The translations under genes and the position numbers were made by a program. The notes under the pieces are model-generated. The model worked only from the letters and a program-made list of their open reading frames with translations, searched no databases and was not told the DNA's origin. DNA of 24,307 nucleotides, taken from IMG/VR virus record IMGVR_UViG_3300032285_002032, positions 1 to 24,307 of that record. One strand, written 5' to 3'. Shown piece after piece: positions 119 through 22,179 of the stretch (positions are counted from its first letter, which is position 1; the number at the start of each line of letters is the position of its first letter). The stretch comes from a virus.

Positions 119-442
119 TCAGCGATGCTGCTTCTTACTATTGCAGGTCAGACAGCATGCTCGTAGGTTCTTTGGATCTAGTCGATCTCCGCCATTAGCT
201 AGCGCCACCACGTGATCGACGGTAGCATCCCTGCCAACCAGCCTTTTCCCGCAGATATAGCATGCCCAATTATCACGGGCCAGTATCTGTAGTCGAATCT
301 TAGACCATGCTGAATCGTAGCCGCGTTGCTGCGCTGTAGCTCTGATGCGTGGCGGTTGATCAGCATCTCTTACCGCCTGGCATCTATCGCATCTACTTCT
401 TGCCGTAGGTATGCCGCAGGTAAGGCATGGCATCTTAGGCAT
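119..442 (-). CDS. HNH homing-type endonuclease
   Basis: This 107-residue protein is a metal-dependent HNH nuclease. It begins with a small cysteine cluster (CLTC at about 6-9, CDRC at about 18-21). The HNH core follows: a CYIC pair near 61-64, DHVVAL giving the catalytic His near 77, the Asn of the KNL motif near 92, and a closing CLTC-N segment near 97-101. In many phages a stand-alone HNH of this size sits beside the terminase and assists DNA packaging; others are homing endonucleases. Here it is the last gene of the minus-strand block and starts 2 bases after the stop codon of the proteasome-like gene, so the two are probably cotranscribed. The packaging role is inference, since the terminase is not visible. 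Confidence 0.85.
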   Translation of the reverse strand: MPKMPCLTCGIPTARSRCDRCQAVRDADQPPRIRATAQQRGYDSAWSKIRLQILARDNWACYICGKRLVGRDATVDHVVALANGGDRLDPKNLRACCLTCNSKKQHR

Positions 443-444
443 GA

Positions 445-1047
445 TTAGTCTTCGTCATCGAGTAATGCAATATAAGTGCGACCATCTTTATGTTGTATCG
501 CAACCTGTACTGCATCGCCTGAATATATATCAAACTTAATCGCTGTCTTTACTGCTTGCTCTAAGATATCGACAGCTTCTTCAAATGATTCAACTTCTTC
601 AATGCCTAAAGCAACTGCCGCACCTAAAGCTAATTGTCGCCCTGTCCCGGTGACATGAAGATTTTCTTTATTGCGTTCTATTCCATAAACTTCATCAATA
701 AAATAAATTGTTCCATTTACTGCAACAATTAAATCATTATCAAATGAAGCGATCTCGCCGCTTTCTTTCATTTCGTATCCGGAATCAATAAAAGCTTTTC
801 TTAATGCCGGAACAAATTTATTCACCATAAACCAATCAAGATTTGTTTTTGGTGCTGCAGGTGGACGGAACGAATGCTGAACAATGTTCATACCTCGTAC
901 TGTTCCCGCTGCTGCAATTAAGTACTTTCCGTTAATTGCAATTTTTCCCATTGGCGAGCAATCGGCTCTTAAATGACCAAAAGAAGTTTGAGAGTCCGCT
1001 GCGATTAAGCACCAATCATCGTGTTGGAAGGCGATCAGCGTTGTCAT
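445..1047 (-). CDS. Proteasome beta/HslV-like Ntn-hydrolase (threonine peptidase)
   Basis: The 200-residue product matches the proteasome beta/HslV fold of N-terminal nucleophile hydrolases along its length. It starts Met-Thr-Thr, so simple methionine removal would expose Thr1 as nucleophile; there is no propeptide. Counting from that Thr, Asp17 falls exactly where the family has it (AADS). A Lys lies at 34 (family Lys33) in MGKIAI, a GTG turn lies near 133-135, and the D-x-x-S-G motif (DIYSG, protein residues 173-177) matches the Asp166/Ser169/Gly170 triad support. Length fits one beta-type subunit. No alpha subunit, ATPase or ligase gene is nearby, so it either forms a self-compartmentalised ring (as HslV or Anbu do) or joins host subunits. 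A good ribosome site (AGGGAG) precedes the ATG. A terminator-like hairpin and a weak candidate promoter lie just upstream, suggesting partly independent expression. Function in infection is unknown; altered host protein turnover is a guess. Confidence 0.85.
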   Translation of the reverse strand: MTTLIAFQHDDWCLIAADSQTSFGHLRADCSPMGKIAINGKYLIAAAGTVRGMNIVQHSFRPPAAPKTNLDWFMVNKFVPALRKAFIDSGYEMKESGEIASFDNDLIVAVNGTIYFIDEVYGIERNKENLHVTGTGRQLALGAAVALGIEEVESFEEAVDILEQAVKTAIKFDIYSGDAVQVAIQHKDGRTYIALLDDED

Positions 1048-1057
1048 TGGATCTCCC

Positions 1058-1103
1058 TGAAAAAGTAATGGCGAGGGCTGCCTTCCCCAACAGACACCTC
1101 GCC
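1058..1103 (-). terminator. Candidate rho-independent terminator
   Basis: On the minus strand GGCGAGG (1103-1097) pairs with CCTCGCC (1076-1070), and a TTACTTTTTC run follows. The loop is long (about 20 bases) and the T-run is interrupted, so strength is uncertain. It would separate the zinc-ribbon gene ending at 1146 from the proteasome-like gene. Confidence 0.45.
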
Positions 1104-1112
1104 GAGGACATT

Positions 1113-1141
1113 TATATCACAATTAGACAAATCAAGCACAA
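1113..1141 (-). promoter_or_regulatory. Weak candidate promoter with a repeated AATTGTG element
   Basis: Reading the minus strand, TTGTGC (1141-1136) and GATATA (1118-1113) are separated by exactly 17 bases, a sigma70-like layout with weak hexamers. AATTGTG occurs twice in this interval. On the plus strand the string AATTAGACAAA (1121-1131) recurs exactly in the divergent control region at 10100-10110, so both sites may bind the same regulator. A start here would place the terminator-like hairpin in the leader of the proteasome-like gene, where it could act as an attenuator. All of this is inference from pattern. Confidence 0.25.
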
Positions 1142-1145
1142 TTGT

Positions 1146-1751
1146 TTACTCCTGGTGTTTCTTCATAGATCCGGCCAGGAGGCCAAGCTGAGTTTTGTCC
1201 CATTCGGCATGGCATTTGGTGCATTTAGCCGATGTCGGTCCGTAGTGATCCATTTGGACAGTAATGGCATTGCTCATGCTGCACAGCGGACACGCTCGAC
1301 TAATCTTGCGCGGTTTCTCTTTCCAGTTCAAGGCTAGCTCGACCTGATTTCGGTAATACGAGACCTGACCGGACACATGATCGACCAATTCGTCGGTTGC
1401 GTTCAGAAGAGCGCTTGGTAGCTGATAAAAGTTCTCGGCGATCGAGGTCTGGAGCTTTCCCCCGGACATCATGACCAGATTTATGCTCAATCGGTCCGCC
1501 GTAATCAACAATTCCATCATTTCGTCATTTATAGGCGTCTTAGAACCGGCCTGGGACCGTTTAGAGGACCCGTCGGCGTTAGAGCTAGGCGTAGACTCAT
1601 AAACCTCAGTGTAAAGCTGTTTAAGGAGGCTCTCGTGGCGCGAGACGTGTGTCTTACCGTTATCCATTGGCTCTTCGTGATCGTATGCCTTGGTCAGGTG
1701 CGCCACGTCGTCGATCAGCGATGCCATGAGCTCAGAACGGGAGCTGCGCAT
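1146..1751 (-). CDS. Zinc-ribbon protein of unknown function
   Basis: The product is 201 residues. The N-terminal half is mostly helical in character with a low-complexity Ser-rich stretch (about 52-70). The C-terminal part holds a zinc ribbon with CPLC at 154-157 and CTKC at 177-180. Zinc ribbons of this type usually bind DNA or RNA or make protein contacts; no catalytic motif is visible. The first ATG overlaps the end of the upstream gene by about 20 bases. A second in-frame ATG at 1725 (residue 9, MASL) is a possible alternative start. The gene lies between the replication initiator region and the proteasome-like gene. I do not recognise a specific family with confidence. Confidence 0.7.
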   Translation of the reverse strand: MRSSRSELMASLIDDVAHLTKAYDHEEPMDNGKTHVSRHESLLKQLYTEVYESTPSSNADGSSKRSQAGSKTPINDEMMELLITADRLSINLVMMSGGKLQTSIAENFYQLPSALLNATDELVDHVSGQVSYYRNQVELALNWKEKPRKISRACPLCSMSNAITVQMDHYGPTSAKCTKCHAEWDKTQLGLLAGSMKKHQE

Positions 1752-2043
1752 TTACGAGACTCTCTTCTTTGCATTCATGGAGAGAAAGTACCAAAGGCTG
1801 TGGTCCATTGATCCCATTTTGGAGGTCCCTGAGTAATCGGAGTTTCGCAGTTGTCTCCTTCATGGTCATGACCAGCCTAAACGTCGAACCGCCTTGCAGG
1901 TGGATCTGCAGCTCCTCAAACTTGGACAACAGGACCCGATCGAGCTTCACATCGAACCCGCCAGCGAAGCATTGCCAAACGACCGCCTTGCAGCGAGTAC
2001 ACATCGATTCCTGTACCGCCGTTGTCTTGAAGGGTTCACTCAT
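1732..2043 (-). CDS. Small cysteine-containing protein, unknown function
   Basis: This is a 103-residue protein. A CTRC pair at 15-18 and a further Cys at 25 suggest a partial zinc site. The middle is beta-strand and helix mixed, with no recognised catalytic motif. Its 3' end overlaps the start of the zinc-ribbon gene in another frame, which points to translational coupling. It is the first gene after the iteron region, and its ribosome site is modest (AGGGA about 8 bases before the ATG). Association with replication is suggested only by position. Confidence 0.65.
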   Translation of the reverse strand: MSEPFKTTAVQESMCTRCKAVVWQCFAGGFDVKLDRVLLSKFEELQIHLQGGSTFRLVMTMKETTAKLRLLRDLQNGINGPQPLVLSLHECKEESLVNAQLPF

Positions 2044-6962: not shown

Positions 6963-7320
6963 TTGTTTCCCCTTCAGTTCTTGGATCGCCATAACCCGCG
7001 TCTCGTAGTAGTTCCACGAGAATTTTAAGCGGGACGATCGCTGGCCATTTCTCTATTGACGCAGGTCCAAAACCATCTGGCCGAAGAACCGCCACCGGAA
7101 TAATTCCGTCGGCAATTCGTTCAGCAGCTTGATTCATAGCTTCAGTGACTGGGAAACCCCTGCGTGCTTTAACTTCCCAGTCAATTCCAACCGTTCCGGT
7201 GACATCTGTTCCTTGCCGACCTGCTCCGGCAGATTCAGCAAAAGGCCAACCATGCGCCGCGAGATAGTTTGCCACTATTTTTTGCGTCGCATAACCGCGA
7301 TGTTTCCGATGTTGACTCAT
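6946..7320 (-). CDS. Holliday junction resolvase-like PD-(D/E)XK nuclease
   Basis: Starting at the ATG at 7320 (ATGA overlap with the upstream stop), the protein is 124 residues. It shows a helical start (GYATQKIVANYLAAHGW), then GRQGTDVTG with the metal-binding Asp, then DWEVKAR with the catalytic Glu and Lys. This is the compact archaeal-Hjc-like / PD-(D/E)XK layout annotated as Holliday junction resolvase in many actinophages. It should bind branched DNA and resolve recombination or replication junctions before packaging. The longer open frame from 7464 is rejected because it lies wholly inside the upstream gene. Confidence 0.75.
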   Translation of the reverse strand: MSQHRKHRGYATQKIVANYLAAHGWPFAESAGAGRQGTDVTGTVGIDWEVKARRGFPVTEAMNQAAERIADGIIPVAVLRPDGFGPASIEKWPAIVPLKILVELLRDAGYGDPRTEGETNATQE

Positions 7321-8153
7321 ACGATCCGTTCTCGAGCTTGATAGACAGCGCTTTCGAGCCAGTGCTCGAAGGTGGTCAATCCTGGCAGGTAAAGGTTCGC
7401 TTGCCACCCATAAAGGATAGCTCTTGCGGTCAAACTTATTTCTTCGATCGTATTTTTTGACCAAAGAGGTTCATAGTCCCAAGTTCCGTCATCGATAGCT
7501 CTTAGCTGCTCAGCCTTTTCAATGTCTCGGTGGTATAAGTGTAAGGAACCAACGGAGTGAGAATACCAACCCATCGGCAGATCCAGAGCCTTAGCTACCG
7601 CGCCCTGCATGGCGGCAAATTGGACTAAATCATATGGAAGACCAAGCCAGACGTCATTCGAGCGCATAGTCGTTCTCATGCAGAGCGAGCCGTTCCGGAT
7701 CAAGAACTGAAGAGCAAGCGTGCAAGGAATGTCCTTGACCTTGGCTCCAAGATCTTGCTTTGAGTCAAATATGGTCAAAATGGCCTGACGTGTATCTGGA
7801 TCAGACTTTAAGAGATCGACCAAAGCATCAAGCCGACCGTAGATCCGCTGACCGTAAGCTCCGTGAAAGACGCCGCCGTCAAGATAATTGGCGAAGACAC
7901 TAGATCCAGAGACTACTAATTCTGGCGCCACGGTAGTACCAACCAACTGCAGCGCTTCAACAGCGCCGATAAAAGGCTTTAGCTCTCGATATCGGACCTC
8001 GTAAGGCATCAACCATGGACGATTTACCTTGAACGTCACGTTGGTGAGTTCTTGAGTGTCCTGACCTCTAGGAGAGATTTTGTCCCCGTGGATCAAACAC
8101 ATGCCGATAGCTGATTCAACTACTTCGGACGGAGTATCAAGTTCAAGATACAT
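7317..8153 (-). CDS. dCMP hydroxymethylase-like enzyme (thymidylate synthase fold)
   Basis: This 278-residue enzyme has the thymidylate synthase fold. Its catalytic positions run two residues behind E. coli ThyA numbering: Cys144 (DIPC; ThyA Cys146), Arg164-Ser165 (Arg166-Ser167), Asp167 (Asp169), and His205 and Tyr207 in GSLHLYH (His207, Tyr209). The key difference is LGLPYDL: Asp175 replaces Asn177, the residue that selects uracil. Asp at this site is characteristic of dCMP hydroxymethylases such as T4 gp42 and of CMP hydroxymethylases such as MilA. I therefore infer that it converts dCMP to 5-hydroxymethyl-dCMP (or methyl-dCMP) using methylene-tetrahydrofolate. Neighbours are a dNMP kinase, an all-alpha dUTPase/dCTPase-like enzyme and dCMP deaminase. 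Ordinary thymidylate synthase activity remains possible. Confidence 0.75.
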   Translation of the reverse strand: MYLELDTPSEVVESAIGMCLIHGDKISPRGQDTQELTNVTFKVNRPWLMPYEVRYRELKPFIGAVEALQLVGTTVAPELVVSGSSVFANYLDGGVFHGAYGQRIYGRLDALVDLLKSDPDTRQAILTIFDSKQDLGAKVKDIPCTLALQFLIRNGSLCMRTTMRSNDVWLGLPYDLVQFAAMQGAVAKALDLPMGWYSHSVGSLHLYHRDIEKAEQLRAIDDGTWDYEPLWSKNTIEEISLTARAILYGWQANLYLPGLTTFEHWLESAVYQARERIV

Positions 8154-11295: not shown

Positions 11296-11685
11296 CTATT
11301 CTTCGACGATTTTAATGCTATGGTGCTTTAAGTATCCTATTGCAGCCTGAAGGATCTGGATATTGTCTTCCGCCATACCGATCAGGGTATTACATTGACC
11401 GCATAGTAACCCGCGGATCGCGTCTTCTGAAAGATCATGGTTGTGATCTACGCTGAAACGCTTGCCGTGAACTTCCTCGGGAACTCCGCAAATGGCGCAT
11501 TTATGGCCTTGAGAGACCAAGAGAGCGTCATAGTCAGCTTGGCGGACAGCCTTTCTCTGCTTCTCTCGGCATTCTCTGCACTGAGATCGGCGACCATCAG
11601 GCTCTCGTGAGCTCTGGCCAAATTCGGAGAAGGCTTTAACCCGAGCGCAGTATTTACAGCGCTTGCGTTTTTCCTTCTCTTCCAT
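11296..11685 (-). CDS. Recombination endonuclease VII (Endo VII-like)
   Basis: The 129-residue product starts at the ATG at 11685, preceded by AGGGGGACC. It opens with a zinc site (CKYC and CREC). The Endo VII core follows: CAICG, SVDHNHD with the catalytic His/Asp/His-Asn, and GLLCGQCN. This ends in a helix, as in T4 gp49. It resolves four-way and branched DNA before packaging. The genome thus carries two junction-resolving nucleases of unrelated folds (see 6946-7320). Open codons upstream to 11745 overlap the holin candidate and are not needed. Confidence 0.88.
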   Translation of the reverse strand: MEEKEKRKRCKYCARVKAFSEFGQSSREPDGRRSQCRECREKQRKAVRQADYDALLVSQGHKCAICGVPEEVHGKRFSVDHNHDLSEDAIRGLLCGQCNTLIGMAEDNIQILQAAIGYLKHHSIKIVEE

Positions 11686-11713
11686 AAGAAGAAGGTCCCC
11701 CTGATCGACTAAA

Positions 11714-11956
11714 TTACTTCGTTTTCTTGGCGGATTCTTTTGCAATCTGCGCGTCCACTTCAGTTTTCACTACAGTGACCACGCCAAAAGCAGGGTCTTT
11801 AGGATTAAGACCGCGGACGGTAACCCCTAGGACACCTGACAAGATAGAGAGGATTTTAACAGTCAGAGGCGCATTTGTAGCGAACGCTGCTGTCGCAAAA
11901 GGAACAGCTATTACGACGTAGGTCTTAGCGATTTTTTTGACTTTATTCAGATCCAT
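11714..11956 (-). CDS. Candidate holin
   Basis: This 80-residue protein starts at the ATG at 11956 (AAGGAGAAATAT upstream). It has two hydrophobic segments (about 13-27 and 31-47) separated by a short turn, then a soluble tail ending in Lys residues. It sits directly after the CHAP endolysin gene, the usual place for a holin. Two-segment topology, size and position support a holin role. No holin family signature is certain, and upstream codons to 12172 are rejected since they lie within the endolysin gene. Confidence 0.65.
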   Translation of the reverse strand: MDLNKVKKIAKTYVVIAVPFATAAFATNAPLTVKILSILSGVLGVTVRGLNPKDPAFGVVTVVKTEVDAQIAKESAKKTK

Positions 11957-20936: not shown

Positions 20937-21134
20937 TTATCTGCCTCTCATATTTGTTGTCGCAACGACTCGGACACCCATGTCACCGCGGTTTGTGTAA
21001 TAGTTGTAAATAACTAAAGGTTGGTTATACATCACACCGGTTTGGTTGTAGCGGTAGTGATATTTGGACGCCTCGTGAGACTCGCGCCAGTTCATAGAGG
21101 GAGCGGCAACTACGCGAGGTTGAATATCACTCAC
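20937..21134 (-). CDS. Small Tyr/Asn-rich protein, unknown
   Basis: This 65-residue protein is rich in Tyr, Asn and Arg (YHYRYNQTG, then YNQPLVIYNYYTN). It has no recognised motif. It starts with GTG, overlapping the glycosyltransferase end by 8 bases with GGAG at good spacing, and stops 2 bases before the connector start. Given its place it may be a small virion or assembly protein. Confidence 0.55.
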   Translation of the reverse strand: MSDIQPRVVAAPSMNWRESHEASKYHYRYNQTGVMYNQPLVIYNYYTNRGDMGVRVVATTNMRGR

Positions 21135-22179
21135 TTATAGCTCCTTCATAATGCTTGAGGTTTTCCTTGAGACGATCAATCCAGGGAGCAAGTTCGACGG
21201 CTTTTCTGCCATGCTTGACAGCTTCTGAATAGTTATTAAGGTTATATGCTGAAATCGCAACCAAATCGTGAGGCAAGTATCCCCAGGCATCCGATTCTAC
21301 TAGATATTCCAGCGGTTGCTGCGTAATCCTGAGCGCCGAGTGAGCCATAGCATAGCACTCAATCCAGCGACCTTCTGAGTAGTAATGCTCGGCAAGATCG
21401 ACCCGGGGTTCCCGGCTGATCGGGGATTCTGCAATAGCTTTGAACAGCCAGCTCTCCCGATCCTGATCCTCCATCTTGGCAAGGTATCTCATAGAAGCCG
21501 CGCGTTCTGGTTTCCAGACTGCCTTAGGAAGCTCTAGGTGACGCTTAAACTGAGCAATAGCTTCGGTGTAATGATTGTGAAAGAAGAGTTCCCGGGCATA
21601 ATAAAAGGTATTCCGATCATCGGTCGGGTCTTCCTTTATTGCCAGGCGTAAAAGGGGAAAATATTGACCCCTGGACTTAGTTTGGTCCGGGTGATGATGA
21701 ATCTCAAGCTTGGTCCATAGCTGATTTTCCTGATCCTGACAGGTGAGAACCTCGTGAACAGGGTGCTTCCAGCGAAATCCTTTGCGTGCGTGGATCTTGT
21801 CCCCACCATAGGTAAGGCCAGGAGATCCGTCCGGGTTCCAGGACCAGGTGTACTTATACCGAGGTCGATTAACACCAGGATCTAATGCCTCAAGCTCAGA
21901 TCTCCAGCCAGGGAACAGGACTTCGTCCATGTCTAAAGCTATGCAGTAGTCAACATCAAGCGGAAGCGCGGCTAATGCGGCATTGCGGGCGTCATCAAAG
22001 CGCCAGGGTGAGATCTGGACGCTAATAACCTTAATACCCAAAGCTTCAGCCTTGGATCTGGTCTCATCGGTCGATCCGGTGTCCGCGATCAGCAAAACAT
22101 CGGCTTCTTTGGCCGATTCATACCATTTCTGGACAAATTGCTCTTCATTAAGCGCAATTGTATAGACTGCAATTTTCAT
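21127..22179 (-). CDS. GT-A (family 2-like) glycosyltransferase with TPR-like C-terminus
   Basis: The 350-residue enzyme shows a GT-A fold. It has the start strand IAVYTIALNEEQF, the nucleotide-binding DTGSTDET (Asp33), the FDDARNAAL segment near 61-69 common in this group, and a DMD metal motif at 83-85. The catalytic part covers about 1-190; the remaining 160 residues are helical and repeat-like, consistent with a TPR-type tail. It transfers a sugar from a nucleotide sugar. The acceptor is unknown: virion protein glycosylation fits the gene's place among structural genes, while DNA glycosylation of hydroxymethylcytosine fits the hydroxymethylase-like gene at 7317-8153. Confidence 0.8.
   Translation of the reverse strand: MKIAVYTIALNEEQFVQKWYESAKEADVLLIADTGSTDETRSKAEALGIKVISVQISPWRFDDARNAALAALPLDVDYCIALDMDEVLFPGWRSELEALDPGVNRPRYKYTWSWNPDGSPGLTYGGDKIHARKGFRWKHPVHEVLTCQDQENQLWTKLEIHHHPDQTKSRGQYFPLLRLAIKEDPTDDRNTFYYARELFFHNHYTEAIAQFKRHLELPKAVWKPERAASMRYLAKMEDQDRESWLFKAIAESPISREPRVDLAEHYYSEGRWIECYAMAHSALRITQQPLEYLVESDAWGYLPHDLVAISAYNLNNYSEAVKHGRKAVELAPWIDRLKENLKHYEGAISE

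Follow-up and report, generated by a model that had tools for sequence, protein, structure and literature searches.

Proteasome homologues carried by phages are not new in kind. Fuchs, Alva, and Lupas described 22 new proteasome homologues in 2021, two of which, PPH (the homologue of phages and their hosts) and AAH, are common in phages. They saw no Actinobacteria-specific phage with an AAH, and none of the new homologues co-occurred with an AAA+ interactor (PMC8665760). BPH, the beta-proteobacterial proteasome homologue, was described in the same work as having a long acidic pore loop and no known unfoldase (PMC8665760). The protein family PHROG 1040 ("peptidase HslV family") and annotated isolates also precede the gene reported here. 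T5-like phages carry the annotation "peptidase HslV family", and members annotated simply as "protease" occur in the Microbacterium phages LeeroyJenkins, WaterT, Lifes, BarnCat, Cassita, and Pumpernickel and in the Arthrobacter phages Pitbull and Hum25. A member annotated as HslV in Actinomycetia phage DSL-LC01, which was assembled from a metagenome, is approximately 38% identical to the protein described below. No experimental work on a phage-borne proteasome homologue was found in the literature searched, and the papers searched report no tests of the Microbacterium, Arthrobacter, or DSL-LC01 members.

Here we analyze a stretch of 24,307 nucleotides from an IMG/VR virus record (hereafter, the window), in which a stand-alone proteasome-like peptidase gene had been predicted. 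The gene belongs to a less noticed group of viral proteasome homologues and is a constant component of the genomes in its virus lineage. Judging from its sequence and its structure model, the product is almost certainly a proteasome-like threonine hydrolase.

The putative peptidase gene and its N-terminus

The open reading frame occupies positions 445–1047, as originally predicted, and is read on the minus strand from 1047 to 445; the opposite plus strand contains many stop codons. It encodes a protein of 200 residues (MTTLIAFQHDDWCLIAADSQTSFGHLRADCSPMGK...AAAGTVRG...HVTGTGRQ...KFDIYSGDAV), assigned to the Ntn threonine hydrolases by Pfam, PHROG, and modelling, in which Met is followed by the candidate nucleophile Thr. 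This Thr is taken as residue 1 of the mature protein (protein residue 2; codon at 1042–1044, minus strand), and the position is Thr in 66 of 66 sequences of the phage group and in 14 of 14 AAH sequences. All of the residues named in the original prediction were found, namely the N-terminal Met-Thr-Thr, Asp17, Lys34, the GTG turn, and the D-x-x-S-G motif, together with Gly47. The Lys lies at position 33 in HslV and proteasome beta subunits and at 34 in the window protein because one residue is inserted ahead of it.

The absence of a propeptide was likewise borne out. There is no in-frame start 5' of the ATG, and a Shine-Dalgarno-like AGGGAG (1052–1058, minus strand) lies a few bases before it and is kept in the two relatives L002 and L023, leading us to take Met-Thr-Thr as the actual N-terminus. 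The start is the same in relatives at 94%, 91%, and 62–68% identity. The 98-nucleotide leader that separates the ATG from the gene before it (1048–1145, minus strand) is almost invariant in the three closest phages and contains an inverted repeat, GGCGAGG...CCTCGCC, directly 5' of the ribosome-binding site. Hairpin folding of the leader was no better than that of shuffled sequences (z -1.05), and a promoter scan gave no excess above shuffles.

Family assignment and conservation

Profile searches against proteasome families, proposed as a check of the original prediction, placed the protein in the Ntn clan with scores well above those expected by chance: it matched Pfam PF00227 with an E-value of 3.2e-7 and 30.6 bits (gathering cut-off, 22.4) and PHROG 1040 with an E-value of 6.9e-22. 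In a six-frame search of the genome, which scores pieces, the peptidase fell below the PF00227 cut-off. The best solved chain in a phmmer search was the 20S beta subunit of M. jannaschii (1.2e-7, aligned over residues 1–190), and a profile built from the close phage relatives ranked HslV of B. subtilis first among solved structures (2.2e-10).

One profile scan of IMG/VR gave 385 confirmed loci, and another, for which the sister group served as seed, gave at least 507. In an alignment of 66 diverse phage sequences of the window group, Thr1, Thr2, Asp17, Lys33, Gly47, Ser/Thr129, and Ser/Thr169 were present in all 66 and Asp166 in 58. By its sequence, the window protein falls into a large group, mostly from actinophages, in which the beta-type catalytic set has been retained in full. 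Pairwise dN/dS values of the gene were 0.04–0.11, indicating strong purifying selection. The Microbacterium and Arthrobacter phage members, which come from isolates with known hosts, fall in the same phage group by their catalytic motif, but they are distant, being reached only via the sister group (28–32% identity to its member L082). A homologue was also found in Tunturi_5, a phage of an acidobacterium. The members from Ochrobactrum phage vB_OspM_OC (L096:3001–3660) and DSL-LC01 (L020:12001–12690) have Lys/Ala-rich C-terminal tails, for which binding of nucleic acid or of a partner is possible.

Structure model

An AlphaFold2 model calculated from an 80-sequence alignment was obtained with high confidence (pLDDT 90.9, pTM 0.87); a run with 20 close relatives gave a pLDDT of 44 and was discarded. 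The single-chain model has the order of core strands and helices of the Ntn alpha-beta-beta-alpha sandwich, the lack of which had been named in advance as grounds for rejecting the assignment. It is least confident around residues 21–30. A Foldseek search against the PDB returned more than 1,000 matches at E ≤ 0.001, of which the best 50 were BPH, 20S subunits, and HslV; BPH (5ovs) ranked first (E 2e-11, TM-scores 0.69 and 0.74), followed by 20S beta chains and HslV. Among viral models the top match was an uncultured Caudovirales phage protein named HslV (TM-score about 0.9, 35% identity). The modelled helices span residues 50–58 and 70–88, the latter being a long H2, and the loop after helix 2 comprises 16 residues and is net acidic (-3 in the window protein; group median, -2). 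The chain ends only four residues past the last core strand (191–196), with neither a C-terminal helix H5 nor an additional C-terminal domain.

The virus and the genomic context

The window comes from a phage, as indicated by its IMG/VR record and by genes for a tape measure protein, tail fibre, head-tail adaptor, endolysin, and integrase. It is a freshwater bacterial virus that, judging from its genes and those of its relatives, probably infects actinobacteria. In the 94% relative (L002), the terminase has its nearest counterpart in Pontimonas phage phiPsal1 (49%), and the primase matches those of Gordonia and Mycobacterium phages. WhiB, an actinobacterial regulator, was found in 9 of 10 and in 10 of 20 records searched, but it is missing from the window and from the two phages most closely related to it.

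Directly downstream of the peptidase gene lies an HNH endonuclease gene (119–442, minus strand; PF01844/PF14279, PHROG 144). The upstream neighbour (1146–1751, minus strand) encodes 201 residues with a Cys-rich C-terminus and a weak Zn-ribbon match, and adjoins the peptidase gene in all six relatives in which it was found; the second upstream neighbour (1732–2043, minus strand) encodes 103 residues and matches PHROG 10480. In both the window and the phages closest to it, the primase gene is followed by two small genes, peptidase, HNH, TerS, and TerL; the window itself ends after HNH, and in L002 the two terminase genes follow.

Of the contigs that share the terminase lineage and extend far enough upstream, ten distinct ones have a peptidase gene in this slot and four lack it there, one of which (G038) has it elsewhere. 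In L373, L380, and L383, the vacant slot 5' of HNH-TerS-TerL holds an HNH/endonuclease VII-like gene related to window positions 11296–11745, and in the L373 record the peptidase gene was found elsewhere. Exactly one copy of the peptidase gene, 28–71% identical to that of the window, was present in each of 11 related records searched whole. These records belong to the terminase or neighbour-gene lineage, and since all of them were chosen as relatives of one phage, the single-copy statement holds for one lineage. The location differs in phages that are more distant, where the gene is sometimes inverted between modules. Arthrobacter phage Pitbull resembles the window in having it close to an HNH gene, two genes ahead of a terminal one. 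No match was found in phiPsal1. This lack and the variable neighbours had suggested an accessory "moron" gene, which was ruled out by the single copy in all 11 records. PADLOC detected no defence system.

Several other genes were noted. A tyrosine integrase (PF00589; 22189–22989, minus strand) lies among the structural genes, suggesting a temperate phage. The lineage also has two different glycosyltransferase-like genes inserted among its head and tail genes (window 21127–22179, minus strand; L351:6473–7186, plus strand). The thymidylate-synthase-like product of 7317–8153 (minus strand), whose best solved match is the CMP 5-hydroxymethylase 5b6d (2.3e-24), has Asp (LGLPYD) where a phage thymidylate synthase has Asn (LGLPFN), and its gene adjoins a dCMP deaminase gene, a dUTPase-like gene, and a kinase gene. 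By sequence it is likely to be a deoxycytidylate hydroxymethylase or methylase, which hints at modified cytosine in the phage DNA.

Possible functions

We propose that the protein is a phage-owned, BPH-like homologue acting in infection as an active, self-assembling, and ATP-independent threonine hydrolase, most likely a peptidase. Considering sequence, model, and analogy together, we see an even chance that this is correct. Given the established specificity of methionine aminopeptidase, the host enzyme would be expected to remove Met before Thr and expose Thr1. The subunit, which is confidently modelled as an Ntn sandwich, would then form a homo-oligomeric single or double ring, as BPH and HslV do, and so enclose a chamber. 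Thr1, Asp17, and Lys34, all present in the sequence, together with Gly47 at the oxyanion hole, would cleave peptides, unfolded proteins, or specific proteins. Cleavage would take place during infection without a phage AAA+ partner, presumably independently of ATP. Since the gene is fixed in an actinophage lineage, the substrate is probably something encountered in all infections and not part of one rare defence system. Several points may tell against a self-assembling peptidase: non-proteolytic members of the family exist, the host may supply an AAA+ partner, and identity to the best solved match is only about 21%.

The lack of a partner ATPase, alpha subunit, or Pup in the window agrees with the original prediction and extends to other genomes. 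Neither AAA_2 (the Clp/HslU-type ATPase) nor Pup was found in any of 15 phage records, which included relatives and two isolated actinophages. Matches to PF00004 outside the larger phage DSL-LC01 were short or sub-threshold, and there was never more than one PF00227 match per record, so that no alpha subunit was seen. With no ATPase detected on the phage side, a motor could come only from the host. The protein might accordingly be an HslV-like core that requires a host unfoldase such as ClpX, ClpC, or ARC/Mpa for folded substrates, the phage providing the chamber and the host the motor. The ranking of B. subtilis HslV as the best match of the close-relative profile (2.2e-10) favours this, as HslV needs HslU. 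However, the window protein falls well short of the cut-off of the HslV equivalog model (24.6 of 157.75 bits), no AAA+ interactor co-occurs with the new homologues (PMC8665760), and a single host motor is hard to name because the phages span actinobacterial and acidobacterial hosts. We consider dependence on a host motor unlikely.

It is similarly doubtful that the Thr1 chemistry serves a non-degradative task, with the protein being, for example, a specific processing enzyme, a connectase-like protein ligase, or an amidase, possibly in monomeric form. Connectase, a monomeric ligase of the proteasome-like family, provides a precedent (PMC8665760), and a large group of single-copy genes is what would be expected for a specific task. 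On the other hand, the long insertion that connectase has between strands 3 and 4 is missing from the window protein, and the beta-type surroundings of the active site are kept, including Gly47, Asp166, and Ser169, several of which AAH has lost.

The original prediction also allowed for a subunit that enters the host 20S proteasome and inhibits or re-tunes it as a decoy or poison. Many actinobacteria have a 20S proteasome, and the related phages are actinophages. This proposal nevertheless found no support, and we regard it as very improbable. The full catalytic set is intact and under strong purifying selection; the protein is far from the bacterial 20S beta models, with no TIGR03690 match at E ≤ 1 and 46 of 224 bits for the archaeal beta model; helix H5, which stabilizes beta rings, is missing; the Tunturi_5 homologue comes from a phage of an acidobacterium; and the best fold match is BPH, an autonomous homo-oligomer.

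A prohead protease, which the position of the gene immediately ahead of those for packaging and the head might suggest, is largely refuted and highly improbable, because the same lineage has a separate head protease: an HK97-type head maturation protease is encoded between portal and major capsid genes at L351:3447–4856 (PHROG 80, 1.1e-51) on a contig that has a 98% identical terminase and also holds the 91% relative L023, a portal-adjacent protein of relative G007 matches the head maturation protease family PHROG 595, LeeroyJenkins has both a family member (gp16) and a "capsid maturation protease" (gp25), and in other relatives the peptidase gene is far from the head genes. The L351 head protease (plus strand) itself is considerably extended at its N-terminus, where a PHROG 3636 "DNA binding protein" domain (residues 79–219, 3.9e-23) by eye has a Dps/ferritin-like look. 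The length of this protease varies among the relatives, and that of L375 has a different N-terminal domain (PHROG 2859).

If the window protein is indeed an active, self-assembling hydrolase, the virus would run its own compartmentalized protease without a motor. With a complete active site, strong constraint, and one copy per related record checked, the window group offers a better starting point for study, and its relatives in isolated phages of the laboratory hosts Microbacterium paraoxydans and Arthrobacter globiformis mean that the gene could be removed there.

Comparison with known systems

The classes compared were HslV, 20S beta, presumed AAH, PPH, Anbu, DAH, and BPH. Fuchs et al. also describe CPH, a small class of cyanobacterial homologues that occurs in phages as well (PMC8665760). 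The window protein cannot be classed as a true HslV or as a 20S beta subunit. Its score is about a sixth of the NCBIfam equivalog cut-off for HslV, and the best NCBIfam 20S beta score, 46.3 of 224 bits with the archaeal model, is about a fifth of the cut-off; the bacterial model gave no match at E ≤ 1. It shares Thr1, Asp17, the Lys of canonical position 33, the GSG turn, overall profile similarity, and a name in existing annotation with HslV (ClpQ), but the window record lacks HslU, and the acidic loop after helix 2 is longer. Many 20S beta subunits and Anbu have a C-terminal helix H5 (long in Anbu) and DAH (the distant actinobacterial homologue) has an additional C-terminal domain, whereas the window protein has neither; in lacking H5 it resembles the compact group I homologues (PMC8665760).

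AAH was considered as the family because the best plasmid matches of the window protein are rhizobial and Streptomyces AAH-like proteins (25–33%), and AAH is of similar size, begins with Met-Thr, and falls in PHROG 1040. The assignment was ruled out by motif and tree. At position 2 the AAH references, presumed to be such from hosts and motifs, carry Cys (mostly), Val, or Ala. Most of them have SSFRM (SSFRMGQ) where the Gly47 turn would be, and they have GCG and lack Asp166 and Ser169. In a tree of 35 sequences, the presumed AAH and PPH formed one clade (100/99) with the window group outside, and the window clade (100/99) joined the L078 group (99/99). Since the deeper order among the actinophage groups is not settled and the end branches are long, the tree is no proof that the phage group is a single clade. 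Two AAH-like plasmid genes have noteworthy neighbours: that of Bacillus paralicheniformis plasmid pBP1 (L091:4001–4582), probably a phage-plasmid, adjoins genes for a FAD-dependent thymidylate synthase and a helicase, and that of a Sinorhizobium symbiotic plasmid (L090:4001–4546) lies between nifQ and other nitrogen-fixation genes.

PPH is also phage-borne, being found in T5-like phages and others, and shares PHROG 1040 and the annotation "peptidase HslV family". However, it was published as a protein of about 140 residues without helix H2 (PMC8665760), whereas the window protein has 200 residues and a long H2 (70–88). The homologues in T5-like and Vibrio phages were placed by the tree with AAH and not with the window protein. 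When cellular genomes were searched with this profile of the phage proteins, one weak relative was found, in a Parcubacteria MAG, that looks AAH-like, and thus no cellular source was identified. It is possible, although less likely than not, that the group is an unnamed class apart from AAH, PPH, and the cellular classes, which evolved in actinophages, keeps a complete active site of the 20S beta type, and serves these viruses as a proteolytic machine that is fixed, probably essential, and independent of ATP; it would then be a hitherto uncharacterized type of viral proteasome. Fuchs et al. stated that they could find no AAH in phages of actinobacteria, and this is qualified here: actinophages do carry proteasome homologues, of another group.

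Among the solved systems, BPH (PDB 5OVS, 5OVT, and 5OVU) is the closest in fold. Both are compact subunits without a propeptide and share the Thr1/Asp17/Lys33 chemistry and the lack of a dedicated AAA+ partner, and the acidic loop after helix 2 of the window protein points in the same direction as the pore loop of BPH (PMC8665760), which is a weak argument. They differ in that BPH is cellular and the window protein viral, at approximately 21% identity, and in that BPH is known as a double heptameric ring whereas the window protein is known from its sequence and a single-chain model.
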